Origin: Mucilaginibacter sp. UR6-1 | Lineage (GTDB): Bacteria; Bacteroidota; Bacteroidia; Sphingobacteriales; Sphingobacteriaceae | Length of the DNA: 64,000 bases | Assembly: GCF_020880975.1 (NCBI RefSeq) | Contig: NZ_JAJIWP010000004.1 | Location: 1 to 64,000 of the forward strand | Direction of reading: 5' to 3' | Shown here: positions 24,301 to 60,335 of the stretch, one piece after another | Numbering within the stretch: position 1 is the stretch's first letter | How the letters are laid out: every line of letters starts with the position of its first letter | The notes under the pieces: model-generated | Seen by the model: only the letters and a program-made list of their open reading frames with translations | Told to the model about the DNA's origin: nothing | Database searches by the model: none | Made by a program: the position numbers and the translations under genes

Positions 24301-25119
24301 ATGGGCTTTTTACACATCCCGCAGTTGGGGCAGGTACACTATCACGAATACGGCACGGGCAGCAAGCCGCTGCTGGCCTTTCATGGTTACGGCATGACGG
24401 GCAGGCAATTCCATGTGCTGGAGCAATCGGTGCTGCCTGAATATCATGTTTACGGGTTCGATCACTTTTTTCATGGCGGCAGCGCGCTAAAGGACTGGAG
24501 CGAGCAACAGATCATCCGGGGCATGCCCAAGGCCCTGGTGCGCAGCTATGTGGAAGAGTGGTTTAAACTGCATGGCAGGCAACGCTTTTCGGTACTGGGT
24601 TACTCCATTGGCGCTAACCTGGCGCTGATTTTAGTTGAGGAGTATGCCGACCTTATTGACGAGGTGATACTGATGGCGCCCGACGGACTGTTTGTATATA
24701 AGGGCTTCCATATACTAACGCATAAAACACTGGGGCGGTATCTTTTCCGCACGGTTACTAAAAGCAAATGGATAGCGCCATCGCTGTTAAAAACACTTAA
24801 ACGCGTGGGCTTTATTGATGACAGCCTGTACAAAATTGCCTGGAGCGAAATGGATACCGAACAAAAACGGCTTGATGTTTATTATACACTCAACTTGATA
24901 CGCTTATTAAAACCCGATACGCAAAAGGTGGCGCAACTCATCAATCAGCATAACATTAAATGCCGGCTGATATTTGGCCGGCACGATAACCTGTTCCCAA
25001 AAAAGGAGGCGCAACCCTTCATCAATACCTTGACTAACCCTGAGGTACACGAGGTGGACCTGGGGCACTGGCTGGTTACTGCCGATCTGGATAAATATTT
25101 AGTTAAATTTAAAGTATGA
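24301..25119 (+). CDS. Alpha/beta hydrolase, first gene of the carotenoid-glycoside operon
   Basis: 272 aa. The alpha/beta hydrolase triad is readable: Ser 102 in the nucleophile elbow GYSIGA, Asp in FGRHDNLFP (about 229) and His 256 in LGHWLV. HGYGMTGRQFH forms the oxyanion region. No signal peptide is present. It overlaps the next gene by 4 bp (ATGA), so it is co-translated with two acyltransferases, a glycosyltransferase and CruF. Its role might be acyl hydrolysis or transfer on the lipid product; this is inferred from context. The substrate is unknown. Confidence 0.8.
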   Translation: MGFLHIPQLGQVHYHEYGTGSKPLLAFHGYGMTGRQFHVLEQSVLPEYHVYGFDHFFHGGSALKDWSEQQIIRGMPKALVRSYVEEWFKLHGRQRFSVLGYSIGANLALILVEEYADLIDEVILMAPDGLFVYKGFHILTHKTLGRYLFRTVTKSKWIAPSLLKTLKRVGFIDDSLYKIAWSEMDTEQKRLDVYYTLNLIRLLKPDTQKVAQLINQHNIKCRLIFGRHDNLFPKKEAQPFINTLTNPEVHEVDLGHWLVTADLDKYLVKFKV

Positions 25120-25739
25120 TACCCGCCCGCAGAGTAAGCCTCTTTAGTAACTGGTTTGCCCGGTATATGCGCTACCGCATACACAAGGCCTTTAACCGCG
25201 TGGTGGTAATGCCCTTTGAGCCAAAACCCGGCCACTCGGTACTGCTGCTTTGCAACCATTTTAGCTGGTGGGATGGCTTTTTTGGCAACTATTTGGCTTA
25301 CTGGCACCTTAAACGGAAACTCTACATCATGATGCAGGAAGACCATTTGCGTAAGCGAATGTTGTTCAACCTGTTCGGTGGTTTTTCTATCGAAAAAGGT
25401 TCGCGCGAGATGATCAGATCATTGCAATACGCGGCCGGTTTGCTGAACGATCCGGAGAATTTGGTGGTGGTTTTTCCGCAAGGTGAGCTGATATCAAACC
25501 ATGCCACCGAAATTGAGATTGGAAATGGCATCGAACGATTGATAAAAAACATTAAAGGCCCCTGCCAGGTAGTGTACTCCTGTGTGCTTATCGATTACTT
25601 TGAGAGCCTCAAGCCTTCGGCATTCATCCATCTGTTTGATTGCGGCGTAGCGGGCGAAGTACCCTTCGGGCAGTTGGTAAGCAATATTAACGCCCACCAC
25701 AAACAAGCCCTGGCCAACCAGGTACATGCTGACCATTAA
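25116..25739 (+). CDS. PlsC/LPLAT-like acyltransferase 1
   Basis: 207 aa with the acyltransferase HX4D motif in NHFSWWDG (His 48, Asp 53). The later block is VVVFPQGE (about 117-124), equivalent to the EGT/PEGT region of 1-acyl-glycerol-3-phosphate acyltransferases. It is short compared with PlsC (about 240 aa). It aligns without gaps to the next gene's product through residue 125. Its position between an alpha/beta hydrolase and a glycosyltransferase/CruF pair suggests that it acylates a carotenoid glycoside, as in salinixanthin-type pigments; glycerolipid acylation remains possible. Confidence 0.75.
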   Translation: MIPARRVSLFSNWFARYMRYRIHKAFNRVVVMPFEPKPGHSVLLLCNHFSWWDGFFGNYLAYWHLKRKLYIMMQEDHLRKRMLFNLFGGFSIEKGSREMIRSLQYAAGLLNDPENLVVVFPQGELISNHATEIEIGNGIERLIKNIKGPCQVVYSCVLIDYFESLKPSAFIHLFDCGVAGEVPFGQLVSNINAHHKQALANQVHADH

Positions 25740-25754
25740 ACATCAGGATTAAAA

Positions 25755-26378
25755 ATGATCACCCCGAAAAATAATAAAGTGATACACTGGTTCTTCCACC
25801 GGTATATTTTGCGGCTGATCGATAAAAATTTCCGCTCGTTCAACTTGAACAGCATGAAGGTTGAAGAGGATAAGTCTGTACTCCTTATCCCTAATCATTT
25901 TAGCTGGTGGGATGGTTTTATACTTTATTACCTTAATCACAAGCTTTTTAAAAAGCGTTTTCACATCATGATACTGGAGGAAACCGTGAGCAAGGTTTTC
26001 TTTTTAAAATACATGGGCGCCTTCTCAATCAGTAAGAACTCCAAGGGGTTGATCGAATCGCTTAACTATGCGGCAGAGCTATTGAAAGACCCGCAGAACC
26101 TGGTGGTGATATTTCCGCAGGGTAAATTATACTCCAACTTTGTGCAGCAGGTGGTGTTTGATAAGGGTATACTCCGCGTAATGGATAAAGCCAGACAAAC
26201 AGCTCAACTGGTGTTTTGCGCTACATTTATTGAGTACTTCGAGTACAAAAAACCCGGTGTAAACGTTTATGTAAACAAAAGCCCTGTTAACAGCTTTAAT
26301 AATATACATCAATTTACCGATGCCTACCAGCAGCATTATGAGGCGGCACGGCATCAGCAAACACAAATAGTTATATAA
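25755..26378 (+). CDS. PlsC/LPLAT-like acyltransferase 2 (paralog of the preceding gene)
   Basis: 207 aa, the same length as acyltransferase 1 and with key motifs at the same residue numbers: NHFSWWDG (His 48, Asp 53) and VVIFPQGK (about 117-124). The two clearly arose by tandem duplication and have diverged in the C-terminal third. The second block ends in Lys rather than Glu, which may alter specificity. It is followed after 2 nt by the GTG start of the glycosyltransferase. The pair may add different acyl chains or work on different acceptors. Confidence 0.75.
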   Translation: MITPKNNKVIHWFFHRYILRLIDKNFRSFNLNSMKVEEDKSVLLIPNHFSWWDGFILYYLNHKLFKKRFHIMILEETVSKVFFLKYMGAFSISKNSKGLIESLNYAAELLKDPQNLVVIFPQGKLYSNFVQQVVFDKGILRVMDKARQTAQLVFCATFIEYFEYKKPGVNVYVNKSPVNSFNNIHQFTDAYQQHYEAARHQQTQIVI

Positions 26379-26380
26379 CA

Positions 26381-27469
26381 GTGATCATTGCCATATCGGT
26401 AACCTTGTTTTTTATTGTACTGCGCTTTGTGGTTACGCTGTTCAACTTTATGTCGAACCCAAAACTACAACGCATAGCCAAGCCTTATGATGATATGGTA
26501 TCCATACTGATACCTGCCCGTAACGAACAGCAAAATATTGACAACCTGCTGCGCTCCATAACTGAACAGGATTACCGCGATTATGAGGTAATTGTGCTGG
26601 ATGATGGCTCTACCGATGAAACCTATAATATTTGCGCCCGTTACGCCGCCGCACATACCAACTTTAAAGTAATAAAAGGCAAAACACTGCCCGATGGATG
26701 GCTGGGTAAAAACTATGCCTGCTACCAGTTAGCGCAACAGGCTAAAGGTAAATACCTGATGTTTGTTGATGCCGACGAAGAGGTTGAACGCGGCCTGATT
26801 AACAGCGCGGTACACCGTATGCACCTGCGGCAGGTGGCCCTGCTAAGCCTGTTCACCAATCAGCGTATGTTTACCCTGGGCGAAAAACTCGTGGTACCGC
26901 TGATGCATTTTTTGCTGCTCAATTTATTGCCTTTACGCCTGGTATACCTTACCCGGCATTACGCGGTAGCGGCAGCCAGCGGGCAGTTTATGTTTTTTAA
27001 TGCCGAAGCTTACCATGCCAACCAGTGGCACAAACAGGTGCGCAATGAGGTGGTGGAGGATATTGAGATCATGAAACTGGTAAAGGCCGCCCGTTACCGG
27101 GGAGAAAGCCTGCTGGCCAACGGACTTATATATTGCCGCATGTACACCGGTTTTAACGAGGCCATAAATGGGTTCAGCAAAAATTTTCTGGCTATATTTA
27201 ATTACAGCGTACCGGGCTTTCTGGTATATATTACGCTGCTTATTGGCGGGCCTTTACTGGTGATCTCCACCTTAAATTTACCGCTCATTGTTTTTATGGC
27301 CGGGCTTATTATGCTTACCCGTATCATGATCTCATTAGCTGCCGGGCAAAACGCTTTGCTTAACGTACTGCTGCACCCGCTGCAAATGGCGAGTATGGTG
27401 ATCATCGCTTTTTTTGCCATACAGCAGCACCTTACTAAAAACACGGTATGGAAAGGCCGCAGGGTATGA
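26381..27469 (+). CDS. Family 2 glycosyltransferase, membrane-bound (carotenoid glycosyltransferase candidate)
   Basis: 362 aa from a GTG start. An N-terminal helix (about 2-22) precedes a GT-A domain with SILIPARNEQQNIDNLLRSI, the nucleotide Asp in VLDDGST (74-77), the metal-binding DADE (130-133) and the catalytic-region VEDIEIM (about 221). Two or three C-terminal helices follow. This architecture resembles the carotenoid glycosyltransferases CrtQ and CruG. It overlaps the CruF-like gene by 4 bp, which supports a role in glycosylating a carotenoid hydroxyl. The donor sugar is unknown. Confidence 0.8.
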   Translation: MIIAISVTLFFIVLRFVVTLFNFMSNPKLQRIAKPYDDMVSILIPARNEQQNIDNLLRSITEQDYRDYEVIVLDDGSTDETYNICARYAAAHTNFKVIKGKTLPDGWLGKNYACYQLAQQAKGKYLMFVDADEEVERGLINSAVHRMHLRQVALLSLFTNQRMFTLGEKLVVPLMHFLLLNLLPLRLVYLTRHYAVAAASGQFMFFNAEAYHANQWHKQVRNEVVEDIEIMKLVKAARYRGESLLANGLIYCRMYTGFNEAINGFSKNFLAIFNYSVPGFLVYITLLIGGPLLVISTLNLPLIVFMAGLIMLTRIMISLAAGQNALLNVLLHPLQMASMVIIAFFAIQQHLTKNTVWKGRRV

Positions 27470-28110
27470 CAGGCATCCTAAAAAAACCGCCGGTACTTAT
27501 CGGCATAATCATTCTGTTTCATGTTGTAGGATATATTGGTTTTACGCTGCCTGCCACGCGCGATCTGTTTCAGGATATAGTACCTTTTCACCTGCTGCTG
27601 ATGCTGGGCATAGTTATTTTTAGTCACCGGCAGGTTGATAACCATTTCTGGAGCTTTTACCTCATTATCTATTTCGCGGGCTACATAGCCGAGTGGATAG
27701 GCGTACATACCGGCGCATTGTTTGGCTATTATGCCTATGGCAGTACCCTGGGTGCAAAGGTGCTCAATATCCCGCTTATGATTGGTGTTAACTGGTTTTT
27801 ACTGGTATACTCAACCGGGGTATTGATGCAGCGCTCGGGGCTAAATAACCGCCTGCTTCGCGTAATATATGGTGCCGTGATGCTTGTGGTGCTTGATGCG
27901 CTTATAGAACCCGTAGCCATTAGGTTTGATTACTGGCACTGGCGCTTTGAGGCCGTGCCGGCTTACAATTACGTATGCTGGTTTTTTGTGAGCCTTTTTA
28001 TGCTGTATATTTTTGAAAGTTTCAACTTTAAAAAGCAAAGTTGGGTTGGCCCGGCATTACTGATAACACAATTAATATTTTTCGCAGCGTTGAATATTTA
28101 TCCGCTATAA
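27466..28110 (+). CDS. cruF: CruF-like carotenoid 1,2-hydratase (DUF422 family)
   Basis: 214 aa, about six transmembrane helices. The CruF/DUF422 marks are visible: IYFAGYIAEWIGVHTGALFGYYAYGSTLG, PLMIGVNWFLLVYSTG, and DALIEPVAIRFDYWHW in the middle of the membrane domain. The family adds water across the 1,2 double bond of an acyclic carotenoid end group, creating the hydroxyl that can later be desaturated by CrtD and glycosylated. ATG 27466 overlaps the glycosyltransferase stop as ATGA and is preferred over the in-frame ATG 27448. This gene is the strongest evidence that the operon makes carotenoids. Confidence 0.85.
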   Translation: MTGILKKPPVLIGIIILFHVVGYIGFTLPATRDLFQDIVPFHLLLMLGIVIFSHRQVDNHFWSFYLIIYFAGYIAEWIGVHTGALFGYYAYGSTLGAKVLNIPLMIGVNWFLLVYSTGVLMQRSGLNNRLLRVIYGAVMLVVLDALIEPVAIRFDYWHWRFEAVPAYNYVCWFFVSLFMLYIFESFNFKKQSWVGPALLITQLIFFAALNIYPL

Positions 28111-28175: not shown

Positions 28176-29027
28176 ATGGGTGAGTATAATTTAAAGGTGA
28201 CCATTGACCAGGATTCGGGCTTTTGCTTCGGGGTAGTTTTTGCCATTGATATGGCCGAGGAAATACTGGAGCAGGATGGTTACCTGTATTGCCTGGGCGA
28301 TATTGTGCATAACGACGAGGAAGTTGCCCGGCTGAAGGCCAAAGGCCTCCGCATTATTGACCACTCGCAACTGCATGACCTGCATAACGAGAAGGTGCTG
28401 ATCCGCGCGCATGGCGAGGCTCCTGAAACTTATAAAACAGCACTTCAGAATAACATCACCCTGATTGATGCCTCGTGCCCTGTAGTGCTTAAATTGCAAA
28501 ACCGCATTAAAACATCACACGATAATAAGGAGCAGATACTCATTTTCGGCAAGCATGGCCATGCCGAAGTGATCGGCCTGCAAGGCCAAACCAACAACGA
28601 GGCTTTGGTATTTCAGGATATTGCCGAGCTGGACAACGCCGAACTGCCCGAACGCTTTACCTTATACAGCCAAACCACCAAAAGCACCGATAAGTTTTAT
28701 GCCATTAAGGAGGAACTGCTTAACCGTGGTTACGAAGTAAAAGCCAATGATACCATTTGCCGCCAGGTATCAAACCGTGATAAGGATCTGCCTGAGTTTG
28801 CGGTAAAGTTTGATAAGGTGGTGTTTGTATCGGGCAAAAAATCGTCAAACGGCAAGGTACTGTTCGAGGTTTGCAAGAGGCACAACCCCAATACTTACTT
28901 TATTTCATCTGTTGAAGAGCTGGATAAGGCGCTCTTCGCGCCCGGCGACACCGTAGGCATCGCCGGGGCTACATCAACCCCTATGTGGCTGATGCAGGAT
29001 GTAAAGAACGCCCTTGAGGCTTTTTAA
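28176..29027 (+). CDS. ispH: 4-hydroxy-3-methylbut-2-enyl diphosphate reductase
   Basis: 283 aa. It is the last enzyme of the MEP pathway, reducing HMBPP to IPP and DMAPP with a [4Fe-4S] cluster. The three cluster cysteines are Cys 17 (GFCFGV), Cys 101 (ASCPVV) and Cys 195 (DTICRQV). LGDIVHNDEEV with its histidine and IRAHGE are also conserved. It lies 65 bp behind the carotenoid operon and would feed it with precursors, although it also serves quinones and undecaprenyl phosphate. It has its own -7 box. Confidence 0.95.
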   Translation: MGEYNLKVTIDQDSGFCFGVVFAIDMAEEILEQDGYLYCLGDIVHNDEEVARLKAKGLRIIDHSQLHDLHNEKVLIRAHGEAPETYKTALQNNITLIDASCPVVLKLQNRIKTSHDNKEQILIFGKHGHAEVIGLQGQTNNEALVFQDIAELDNAELPERFTLYSQTTKSTDKFYAIKEELLNRGYEVKANDTICRQVSNRDKDLPEFAVKFDKVVFVSGKKSSNGKVLFEVCKRHNPNTYFISSVEELDKALFAPGDTVGIAGATSTPMWLMQDVKNALEAF

Positions 29028-58772: not shown

Positions 58773-58873
58773 ACGTAATTGCAAGGCACGAAGCAATCTC
58801 TTCAGGACATTGTTACCCACAATAATGCAAAATCCTTAAAGCTCCCTCTCCTATAGTTGGGGCGAGGGTGTAA
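58773..58873. repeat. Repeat elements at the 3' end of the CrtD-like gene
   Basis: At 58773-58799 there is an element with TTGCAAGGCACGAAGCAATC, the reverse of the type at 52.59 kb. At about 58838-58873 there is a G/C-run element (CCCTCTCC ... GGGGCGAGGG). The second runs into the desaturase gene and encodes its last residues LTPSPQL. No other gene in 58671-58850. Confidence 0.55.
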
Positions 58874-60335
58874 GGTCACTCACAATTTTAGCCGATAGCA
58901 AACACAAAGGTATGCCCCCGCCCGGGTGCACGCTGCCTCCGCAGAAATACAGGTTTTTTATTTTTGACGACCGGTTGGCATGTCGTAAAAATGCCGCGAA
59001 CTGGTTGTTGGAGCTTGTGCCGTACAGCGACCCCTGGTAGGATGAGGTGCGGCTTTCAATTGTGCGAGGGTCGAGTATGCTTTCGCATTGTATAAGAGGA
59101 GATATATCTTCACCTAATAAACGGCTTAGCTTTTCAACAATGCTGGCGCGGGCGGAGTTAATAAGCGCGTCCCAATCCTGCCCTTTGTTGGCTGGTACGT
59201 TGATCATTACAAACCAGTTTTCATGGCCTTCCGGAGCATCATCCGGTTTTAGCTTTGAGCTGATGTTGAGGTAAACGGTCGGGTCGGGCCCGATGGTTTG
59301 ACTATTCCAGATGCTGTTAAACTCCGCCTCGTAATCGGCACTAAAAAATATATTATGCAGATCGAGCTGCGCAAAATGCTTGCTGATGCCCCAGTAAAAT
59401 ATCAATGCCGAACTGCTACGCTCCTGTTGTAGTATTTTTTGGGGGTGGATGCCGGGTAAATGATTAAGCAGCTTTTTGTAGGTGAACCACACATCCATGT
59501 TTGATACAACTATATCGCCATTAATTACATCTCCGTTTACCTTTATACCGCTGGCTTTATTATCCTCAATTACTATTTGTTCAACCGGACTATTGTAATG
59601 GAATTTTATACCCAATTCATCCGCAAGTTTAACCAGCGATGATGTGATGCTGTACATACCACCCTCCGGAAAGTAAGCACCGAAGTGCTGCTCAAAATAA
59701 GGGATAACGTTTAGTGTAGCGGGGGCCTTATAAGGGTTTGAGCCATTGTAGGTGGCATAGCGGTCATGAAACTGCACCAGGCGTTTATCTTTAAAAAAGG
59801 TTGCGTTGGCTTTGTGCATGTTTCGCATCGAATCGATACCCGGCAAGCGCAGAATTGATTTCAGCGTAGGCCAGCGCAGGTAAGTGCTCAGCCGGTGTAA
59901 CGACCGCTCTAAAAAAACATGGTTGGTAATATCATAAATGCGGCGGCTGTTTGCAGCATACTTGCGGATGTTTGCCGCTTGTTCGCCTGTTCTGGCAGAT
60001 AGCTCGTCAACGAATTTCCCGCTATCAGCATAAGCCGATAAGCGGGTGCCATCCTCATAAAAATAGTTACAAACGGTATCGAGTTGCTGATAATTAAAAT
60101 ACCGGCGCGGATCTTTACCGGCCAGTACAAAAAGCTCATCAATATACTGCGGCATGGTAAACAGGCTTGGCCCGGCATCAAAGCGGTAGCCCTGCTGTTC
60201 AAATTCAGCTAATTTGCCACCCGGATAGGCGTTTGCCTCATAAATAGCCACCGCATAGCCTTTTATTGCCAAACGGATAGCCGTAGCAATACCTGCAATA
60301 CCGGCACCTATAATTATTGCTTTTGGCTGAGGCAT
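58851..60335 (-). CDS. CrtD/CrtI-type carotenoid desaturase
   Basis: 494 aa. The FAD motif IIIGAGIAGIATAIRLA (6-22) and the substrate-side phrase GGKLAEFEQQGYRFDAGPSLFTMP are hallmarks of phytoene-desaturase-like enzymes. The C-terminal NLYFCGGSVHPGGGIPLCLLSAKIV is the carotenoid signature. Because CruF is encoded at 27.5 kb, a 1-hydroxycarotenoid 3,4-desaturase (CrtD) role is attractive. A CrtI-type phytoene desaturase cannot be excluded by eye. The last few residues are encoded by an intergenic repeat. It is divergent from a rhomboid gene. Confidence 0.82.
   Translation of the reverse strand: MPQPKAIIIGAGIAGIATAIRLAIKGYAVAIYEANAYPGGKLAEFEQQGYRFDAGPSLFTMPQYIDELFVLAGKDPRRYFNYQQLDTVCNYFYEDGTRLSAYADSGKFVDELSARTGEQAANIRKYAANSRRIYDITNHVFLERSLHRLSTYLRWPTLKSILRLPGIDSMRNMHKANATFFKDKRLVQFHDRYATYNGSNPYKAPATLNVIPYFEQHFGAYFPEGGMYSITSSLVKLADELGIKFHYNSPVEQIVIEDNKASGIKVNGDVINGDIVVSNMDVWFTYKKLLNHLPGIHPQKILQQERSSSALIFYWGISKHFAQLDLHNIFFSADYEAEFNSIWNSQTIGPDPTVYLNISSKLKPDDAPEGHENWFVMINVPANKGQDWDALINSARASIVEKLSRLLGEDISPLIQCESILDPRTIESRTSSYQGSLYGTSSNNQFAAFLRHANRSSKIKNLYFCGGSVHPGGGIPLCLLSAKIVSDLTPSPQL

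Follow-up and report, generated by a model that had tools for sequence, protein, structure and literature searches.

What does a compact operon of Mucilaginibacter sp. UR6-1 (Bacteroidota, Sphingobacteriaceae) produce, when it joins a carotenoid hydratase to a glycosyltransferase, two acyltransferases and a hydrolase? The operon lies in a stretch of 64,000 nucleotides (contig NZ_JAJIWP010000004.1 of assembly GCF_020880975.1), here called the window, and consists of genes for an alpha/beta hydrolase (HYD), two PlsC-like acyltransferases (AT; AT1 and AT2), a family 2 glycosyltransferase (GT) and a CruF-type hydratase, with ispH behind them. Our analysis suggests that these genes probably encode the final steps in the synthesis of an acylated carotenoid glycoside, the predicted product being an acylated flexixanthin-type 1'-glycoside, and we predict with good confidence that GT and AT2 together yield a carotenoid glycoside ester in this bacterium. 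This reading draws on family identity, conserved gene order, catalytic motifs and purifying selection, all of which are observed; the substrates of the enzymes and the product are what we infer from them.

The operon is real, with all five open reading frames and ispH lying open where a preliminary description of this DNA had placed them. That description joined the genes by ATGA overlaps or gaps of at most 15 bp, which holds for the five genes as far as the distances go; the ATGA itself is certain only for HYD and AT1, which overlap by 4 bp. AT1 and AT2 are separated by 15 bp and AT2 and GT by 2 bp, GT beginning with GTG. GT and CruF overlap by 22 bp if CruF begins where listed, at 27448, and by a 4 bp ATGA only with a later, in-frame ATG at 27466, and ispH stands 65 bp beyond CruF. 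The features are as follows.

24301..25119, + strand: HYD, alpha/beta hydrolase, 272 aa, accessory module with AT1 (PF00561, 47.6 bits, cut-off 25.8)
25116..25739, + strand: AT1, PlsC-like acyltransferase, 207 aa, with HX4D and FPQG (PF01553, 38.1 bits, cut-off 23)
25755..26378, + strand: AT2, PlsC-like acyltransferase, 207 aa, conserved acyltransferase of the cassette (PF01553, 45.9 bits, cut-off 23)
26381..27469, + strand: GT, family 2 membrane glycosyltransferase, CruC/CruG/HpnB-like, 362 aa (PF00535, 90.5 bits, cut-off 23.3)
27448..28110, + strand: CruF-type carotenoid 1',2'-hydratase, 220 aa (PF04240, 86.3 bits, cut-off 25)
28176..29027, + strand: ispH, last enzyme of the methylerythritol phosphate isoprenoid pathway, 3' in the conserved block (PF02401, 282.1 bits, cut-off 24.5; NF002187, 360 bits, cut-off 276)
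58851..60335, - strand: CrtD, 1-hydroxycarotenoid 3,4-desaturase, in the same window (NF042421, 639.2 bits, cut-off 500)

Conservation of the AT2-GT-CruF cassette

AT2-GT-CruF is a conserved tailoring cassette. PF04240 occurs in 114 of the 201 genomes of the family, from which we read the window's own locus, 30 short loci, 40 loci of 13-18 kb and three more around HYD; among the named loci L166, L167, L174, L189, L196 and L220 repeat L045, L056, L077, L072, L074 and L113 and are not independent of them. In the 13-18 kb loci an AT and a GT stand by CruF in 23/23 cases from the own genus and 16/17 from other genera, ispH lies within 5 kb of CruF in 20/23 and 16/17, and HYD is present in 19/23 and 0/17, respectively. 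The short loci have GT by CruF in 26 cases and AT in 22, and the four that lack GT carry a CrtD-type gene. CrtD is found directly upstream of AT2 or HYD in many relatives, the order AT2-GT-CruF-ispH-hemH recurs in named Pedobacter, Daejeonella and Arcticibacter records, and the full HYD-AT1-AT2-GT-CruF set also occurs in a further genus (g3), in all three loci read. Named strains of Mucilaginibacter differ at the locus: M. rigui, M. aurantiaciroseus and M. lappiensis carry HYD-AT1-AT2-GT-CruF, M. straminoryzae carries AT2-GT-CruF and M. frigoritolerans GT alone. The preliminary description knew of no named operon with this exact order; our search for it across Sphingobacteriaceae revealed that the order itself is common in Mucilaginibacter.

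Comparison with the relative L048 gave dN/dS values of 0.033 for HYD, 0.022 for AT1, 0.059 for AT2, 0.069 for GT, 0.123 for CruF and 0.023 for IspH, and every gene of the operon is thus under constraint. Together with the near-constant placement of AT and GT by CruF, this argues that the operon is not a chance arrangement. Against L048, L055 and L064, the lowest values among the first five genes are those of HYD and AT1, a pattern that fails as a general rule in L159 versus L205 (HYD 0.122 and AT1 0.098 versus AT2 0.079 and GT 0.057). Median identity to the window within the genus, with the three nearest relatives excluded, is 74% for HYD, 78% for AT1, 53% for AT2, 66% for GT and 55% for CruF.

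Beyond the family, 107 of the 395 genomes examined from the phylum have PF04240, and 60 new ones were read, including 20 of the 26 from the class. Among the 20 loci sampled within the class but outside this family, none has a GT or AT by CruF and 17 have a CrtD/CrtI-type gene, a pattern consistent with organisms that, like Algoriphagus, make flexixanthin in free form. The 40 loci from other classes have a GT in 20 cases, an AT in 19 and both in 16 within 5 kb, with one further AT (in L122) recognized by eye and by profile. In seven of these loci (L107, L109, L113, L126, L144, L145 and L146) crtB, cyclase, crtD, AT, GT and cruF form one row, with AT and GT between crtD and cruF; the same full row is present in the named L203 (Ignavibacteriales) and L228 (Ignavibacterium), and L213 and L219 share its core, crtB or the cyclase not being seen there. 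The preliminary description had assigned CruF, GT and an acyltransferase to a carotenoid pathway, a proposal that gains support from this placement inside whole carotenoid clusters, from the conservation of AT2-GT-CruF and from the core carotenoid genes of the genome. Its comparison with Salinibacter salinixanthin is likewise supported by the Salinibacter-type locus L122, arranged as cruF-crtB-AT-(220 aa gene)-GT, where the homologues of all three are clustered: its GT is 33% identical to that of the window (E 3e-47) and its AT matches the A3 profile with 96.7% probability.

Three further observations were made in these loci. The core in L219, crtI-crtB-crtD-AT-GT-cruF, comes from a metagenome-assembled genome (MAG) titled Deltaproteobacteria, and its AT clusters with the one from L113, perhaps through transfer or mis-binning. 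PF04240 hydratase is fused to PF00494 phytoene synthase in L108 (7314-9074, 586 aa) and L117 (7993-9981, 662 aa). Between GT and cruF, L115 (7547-8101), L130 (7432-7986) and L132 (9070-9639) encode a protein of some 185 aa that none of the models used here matched.

Carotenoid genes of the genome and the predicted pathway

CruF is the sole PF04240 match of the genome and is predicted to hydrate C-1',2' of the psi end group. On contig C8, crtI and crtB lie back to back, and next come a short conserved gene and a lycopene cyclase that contains two cyclase domains (TIGR03462, 97.6 bits, cut-off 39.4). CrtD, inside the window and above its curated cut-off, is the second strong CrtI-family match of the genome and, judging by the name of its family, would act on a 1-hydroxylated substrate, in keeping with CruF. 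Elsewhere in the genome are a CrtW-type ketolase gene (L150) and a CrtZ-like gene (L238). For L150, CrtW is the top NCBIfam hit at 241 bits, below the cut-off of 350, and in the relatives L049, L052 and L160 a gene that resembles CrtW by eye comes next after ispH. L238 encodes a protein of 145 aa with CrtZ-like motifs by eye and a score above the PF04116 cut-off. In L011 (11713-12252) a 179 aa gene overlaps both crtB and the lycopene cyclase, with homologues likewise placed in L107, L109, L113, L126, L144 and L146.

In the predicted pathway, CrtB and CrtI would produce lycopene, of which a CrtYcd-type cyclase would close one end to give gamma-carotene. CruF would then hydrate the open end at C-1', CrtD would add the 3',4' double bond, and CrtW and the CrtZ-like enzyme would modify the ring, resulting in deoxyflexixanthin or flexixanthin. 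GT would add a hexose to the 1'-hydroxyl and AT2 would esterify that sugar with a fatty acid. Carrying a single iso-C15:0 chain, the predicted pigment would be C61H92O8 (952.679) as the 4-keto form lacking 3-OH or C61H92O9 (968.674) where 3-OH is present, and another such chain would add C15H28O (224.214); the formula of the C13 form, C59H88O8, coincides with that of a salinixanthin peak in PMC5822342. AT1 would most likely transfer a second or different acyl chain with HYD as an editing esterase or thioesterase, though for this last step the assignment is tentative, plausible without being probable. An antenna role for the pigment, as in the xanthorhodopsin/salinixanthin system, was considered and ruled out, as rhodopsin (PF01036) has no match in the window genome, against four in G342.

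Several results weigh against this prediction; those that concern model scores and gene neighbourhoods are given here, and the others beside the alternatives that they favor. CruF scores below the cut-offs of the NCBIfam CruF equivalogs (65.1/154.7, 40.7/300 and 27.8/400 bits), and since bisanhydrobacterioruberin gives two of these models their name and gamma-carotene the third, the scores speak against those equivalogs. GT falls below the cut-offs of both the CruG 2'-O-glycosyltransferase (NF045692, 92.1/600 bits) and the HpnB hopene-associated glycosyltransferase (TIGR03469, 120.2/379.25 bits), and no NCBIfam model matches the CrtZ-like gene. Some named records, Bacteroidales-type MAGs and one Draconibacterium (placed by NCBI in class Bacteroidia), carry CruF-AT-GT, which limits the control sampled from the class. 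The AT of the Salinibacter-type locus has YPAG in place of FPQG and a PF01553 score of 22.8 bits, just below the cut-off of 23.

The hydrolase-acyltransferase pair

HYD and AT1 appear to be a separately inherited module, as judged from their phylogeny and genomic contexts. The presumed Ser-Asp-His triad of HYD is kept in 20/20 rows, and a fold search with its model (predicted local distance difference test score, pLDDT, 77.4) returned general alpha/beta hydrolases. The HYD profile matches 83 of the 201 family genomes, at 350 bits or more in 29 (26 of the own genus and three of g3) and in a more distant form in 54. The operon-type gene lies within about 3 kb of CruF in 26 of the 29, across two genera. 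The three exceptions are G146, in which the pair is 115 kb from CruF and directly follows crtD (L265), which ties HYD-AT1 to carotenoids, and G126 (HYD-GT-ispH) and G159 (HYD-AT1-GT), both without CruF. Strict co-occurrence of HYD and AT1 held in 19/19 own-genus loci with either gene and is broken by L160, L163 and L263, which have HYD without AT1.

The distant form of HYD adjoins an AT in 15 of the 16 loci read, and in the remaining one (L271) the contig ends; CruF is absent from the stretch in all of them, which weighs against the main prediction. Ten of them (L239, L240, L273-L276, L278, L279, L281 and L282) have the order ketoreductase, dehydratase-like protein, ketosynthase, FabI, phosphopantetheinyl transferase, HYD and AT, and five have HYD-AT alone (L269, L270, L272, L277 and L280), the AT being AT2-like in L272, L277 and L280 and HYD being split into two frames in L280. 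The fatty-acid-synthase-like operon (L239, 2850-7741; L240, 2503-7340) is a small type II system found in several genera of the family, in which the dehydratase-like protein has no Pfam match; an acyl carrier protein between dehydratase and ketosynthase was identified in L239 only. In the trees, the L239-L240 pair is sister to the operon pair for HYD (100/99) and for AT, where the AT1 clade joins the acyltransferases of this operon (99/97); both trees giving the same placement, HYD and AT were probably inherited together. In the class beyond this family, the surroundings of 18 HYD homologues gave no AT match.

The preliminary description had counted hydrolase and AT1 among the parts of the pigment pathway, an assignment that in this form lacks support: their closest outside relatives are pairs that occur in the fatty-acid-synthase-like operon or alone, AT1 did not arise as a recent copy of AT2, and GT, in one case with HYD-AT1, is kept where no phytoene synthase gene is present. 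HYD-AT1 may instead be a lipid module unrelated to the pigment and inserted for expression only, which we consider doubtful yet a serious possibility. The related pairs elsewhere in the family, in the fatty-acid-synthase-like operon or alone, favor it, as do the HYD-AT1-GT set of G159, where neither CruF nor crtB is present, and the HYD-GT set of G126. Against it stand the proximity to CruF of nearly all operon-type HYD genes in two genera and the position behind crtD in G146, and also the FPQG motif that AT1 shares with the cassette ATs, though the ATs of L239 and L240 have it too. What we predict for the pair is acyl transfer with an editing or releasing hydrolase.

Glycosyltransferases retained without phytoene synthase

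The GT profile aligns with ceramide glucosyltransferase over residues 8-252 (E 1.5e-05), other solved glycosyltransferases scoring higher over the catalytic domain alone, and 39 of its residues are invariant across 15 rows from several classes. Phytoene synthase (PF00494) was sought in 16 genomes and found in seven of them. GT is kept between kdtA and ispH, with no CruF by it, in the Mucilaginibacter loci L165, L169 (M. frigoritolerans) and L171; L165 also keeps AT2, and neither L169 nor L171 has an acyltransferase there. The genomes of these three loci and G159, which keeps HYD-AT1-GT, have no PF00494 match, and 39, 38, 38 and 36 of the 39 invariant residues are retained in L165, L169, L171 and G159, respectively. 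The loci with a cassette GT in a genome without a phytoene synthase match are L165, L169, L171 and L264. Between L169 and L171, dN/dS is 0.085 for GT, compared with 0.114 for kdtA and 0.029 for ispH. The retention of GT under constraint in genomes without PF00494 suggests that, at least there, it is useful without carotenoids: in L169 and L171 GT would work without them if the loss of crtB predates their split, a conclusion that independent late losses would weaken. Hopanoid glycosylation, suggested by the HpnB-like score, was also considered; the HpnCDE route of hopanoid synthesis requires PF00494-type enzymes, and GT-keeping genomes without a PF00494 match cannot make a hopanoid by it.

These results raise an alternative for the operon as a whole, in which the acceptor of GT is a lipid other than a carotenoid, such as a ceramide, diacylglycerol or a different hydroxylated isoprenoid; GT, AT and HYD would turn it into an acylated glycolipid, and CruF and CrtD would do no more than share the operon. 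Besides the retained and constrained GT, the HYD-AT1-GT set of G159 and the ceramide glucosyltransferase match, this explanation can draw on Pedobacter deserti (L200), Solitalea agri (L201) and Sphingobacterium deserti (L208), which have a GT with neither CruF nor AT beside it and in which crtB was not sought. We nevertheless regard it as unlikely, given that carotenoid clusters enclose AT-GT in numerous families of other classes, that neither gene accompanies CruF in the control loci of the class, and that the lack of an acyltransferase at L169 and L171 means that the retained function need not be the original one.

The two acyltransferases

Five genes of the genome match PF01553, namely AT1, AT2, two PlsC-like genes with FPEGT and one 586 aa frame (L086). 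PlsC phospholipid acyltransferases have HX4D and FPEG as hallmarks; AT1 and AT2 keep HX4D, and in both FPQG replaces FPEG. The F/Y-P-Q motif is found in 20/20 AT1 rows, 24/24 AT2 rows of the genus and 16/16 AT2 rows of other genera, that is, in all 60 rows of the family, and in 14/20 cassette AT rows from other classes, where the six exceptions are the Salinibacter-like clade. AT1 forms its own clade apart from AT2 (nine rows, 100/100). That AT1 is a recent tandem copy of AT2 was considered and rejected, as the AT2 sequences of the genus cluster with the family's AT2 sequences (96/97), AT1 stands separate (100/100) and the two are 34% identical.

The model of AT1 (pLDDT 91.8) has PatA, which acylates the sugar of a glycolipid, as its top PDB match by E-value (6.0e-06), with a TM-score of 0.43; the TM-scores of PlsC (0.62) and GPAT1 (0.66) are both higher. 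That GT glycosylates a carotenoid and AT1 and AT2 are ordinary phospholipid acyltransferases riding along is very improbable: their PF01553 membership, a weak match to Thermotoga PlsC as the only solved relative by sequence (E 0.0062) and the PlsC TM-score of 0.62 against 0.40-0.46 for PatA speak for it, whereas the two other PlsC-like genes with FPEGT make a housekeeping role for AT1 and AT2 unlikely, FPQG replaces FPEG, and an AT holds its place between crtD and GT, or by GT, in unrelated lineages.

Comparison with known systems

The glucosylation followed by acylation that we predict can be likened, by description, to Chlorobaculum tepidum, in which CruC and CruD, reportedly tested in mutants by Maresca and Bryant in 2006, are said to glucosylate and then acylate the 1'-hydroxyl carotenoid to form chlorobactene glucoside laurate; hydration there is reportedly by CrtC, with the genes unclustered. 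The cyanobacterial CruF-CruG system for myxol glycoside shares the PF04240 hydratase and family 2 glycosyltransferase, to our knowledge without an acyltransferase, and GT reaches only 92 bits against the CruG cut-off of 600. Staphyloxanthin synthesis by CrtQ and CrtO likewise combines carotenoid glycosylation and acylation, in a C30 acid glucose ester and with a different acyltransferase family.

The kind of pathway is thus already known from CruF/CruC/CruD and salinixanthin, and the operon is assigned to it on homology and context. The accessible text of PMC2615216 names separate cruF and cruD in Salinibacter ruber, with orthologues of other end-group enzymes also present, and a fused hydratase-acyltransferase in Thermomicrobium roseum; that of PMC5822342 describes Rhodothermus marinus as making salinixanthin with C11-C17 acyl chains, with CruC and CruD and no CruF homologue. 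The present operon resembles these systems in a PF04240 hydratase (R. marinus excepted), a family 2 GT and a PF01553-type AT in or near a carotenoid cluster, and a 1'-O-acyl-hexoside is predicted here also. It differs in the order AT-GT-cruF, a CruF of 220 aa (304 aa in L122), the FPQG acyltransferase, the extra HYD-AT1, the separation of the cassette from crtB-crtI and the attached ispH. Seven of the eight genes of the Algoriphagus flexixanthin pathway have a counterpart in our genome (crtB, crtI, cruF, of 221 aa there, crtD, crtYcd, crtW and a crtZ-like gene; crtE was not searched for), and the accessible text of that study (PMC10784355) gives free flexixanthin as the product and names no glycosyltransferase or acyltransferase. 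The literature searched, of partial coverage and including accessible text of PMC6767994 and PMC5435697, yielded no report of carotenoid glycosides from Mucilaginibacter or Sphingobacteriaceae, and the accessible text of PMC2889829 and PMC6669644 gives no acyltransferase for this lineage. For salinixanthin-type acyl glycoside genes, the accessible part of PMC5822342 calls knock-outs vital for validation, and that of PMC6508672 describes pathway and mechanism as not well defined.

Significance

Assignments of genes to salinixanthin-type acyl glycosides are still poor, and a short operon in culturable Sphingobacteriaceae makes the steps testable. Natural variants exist with both acyltransferases, with one or with GT only, which renders the acylation and glycosylation steps directly accessible to experiment, and the occurrence of the HYD-AT pair in two unlike contexts provides a handle on an uncharacterised acyl-transfer module. 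A broader and rather speculative view, which we hold to be somewhat unlikely, is that GT, AT and HYD are a lipid acyl-glycosylation toolkit that is not confined to pigment, in which a second, non-carotenoid acceptor of GT would outlive the loss of carotenoids and HYD-AT1 would have been recruited into the pigment operon, in Mucilaginibacter and one other genus, to give a doubly acylated carotenoid glycoside. In summary, the operon adds an acyl module to the known CruF-CruC-CruD kind, and with it the puzzle of a second acceptor, as these enzymes may also serve another lipid.

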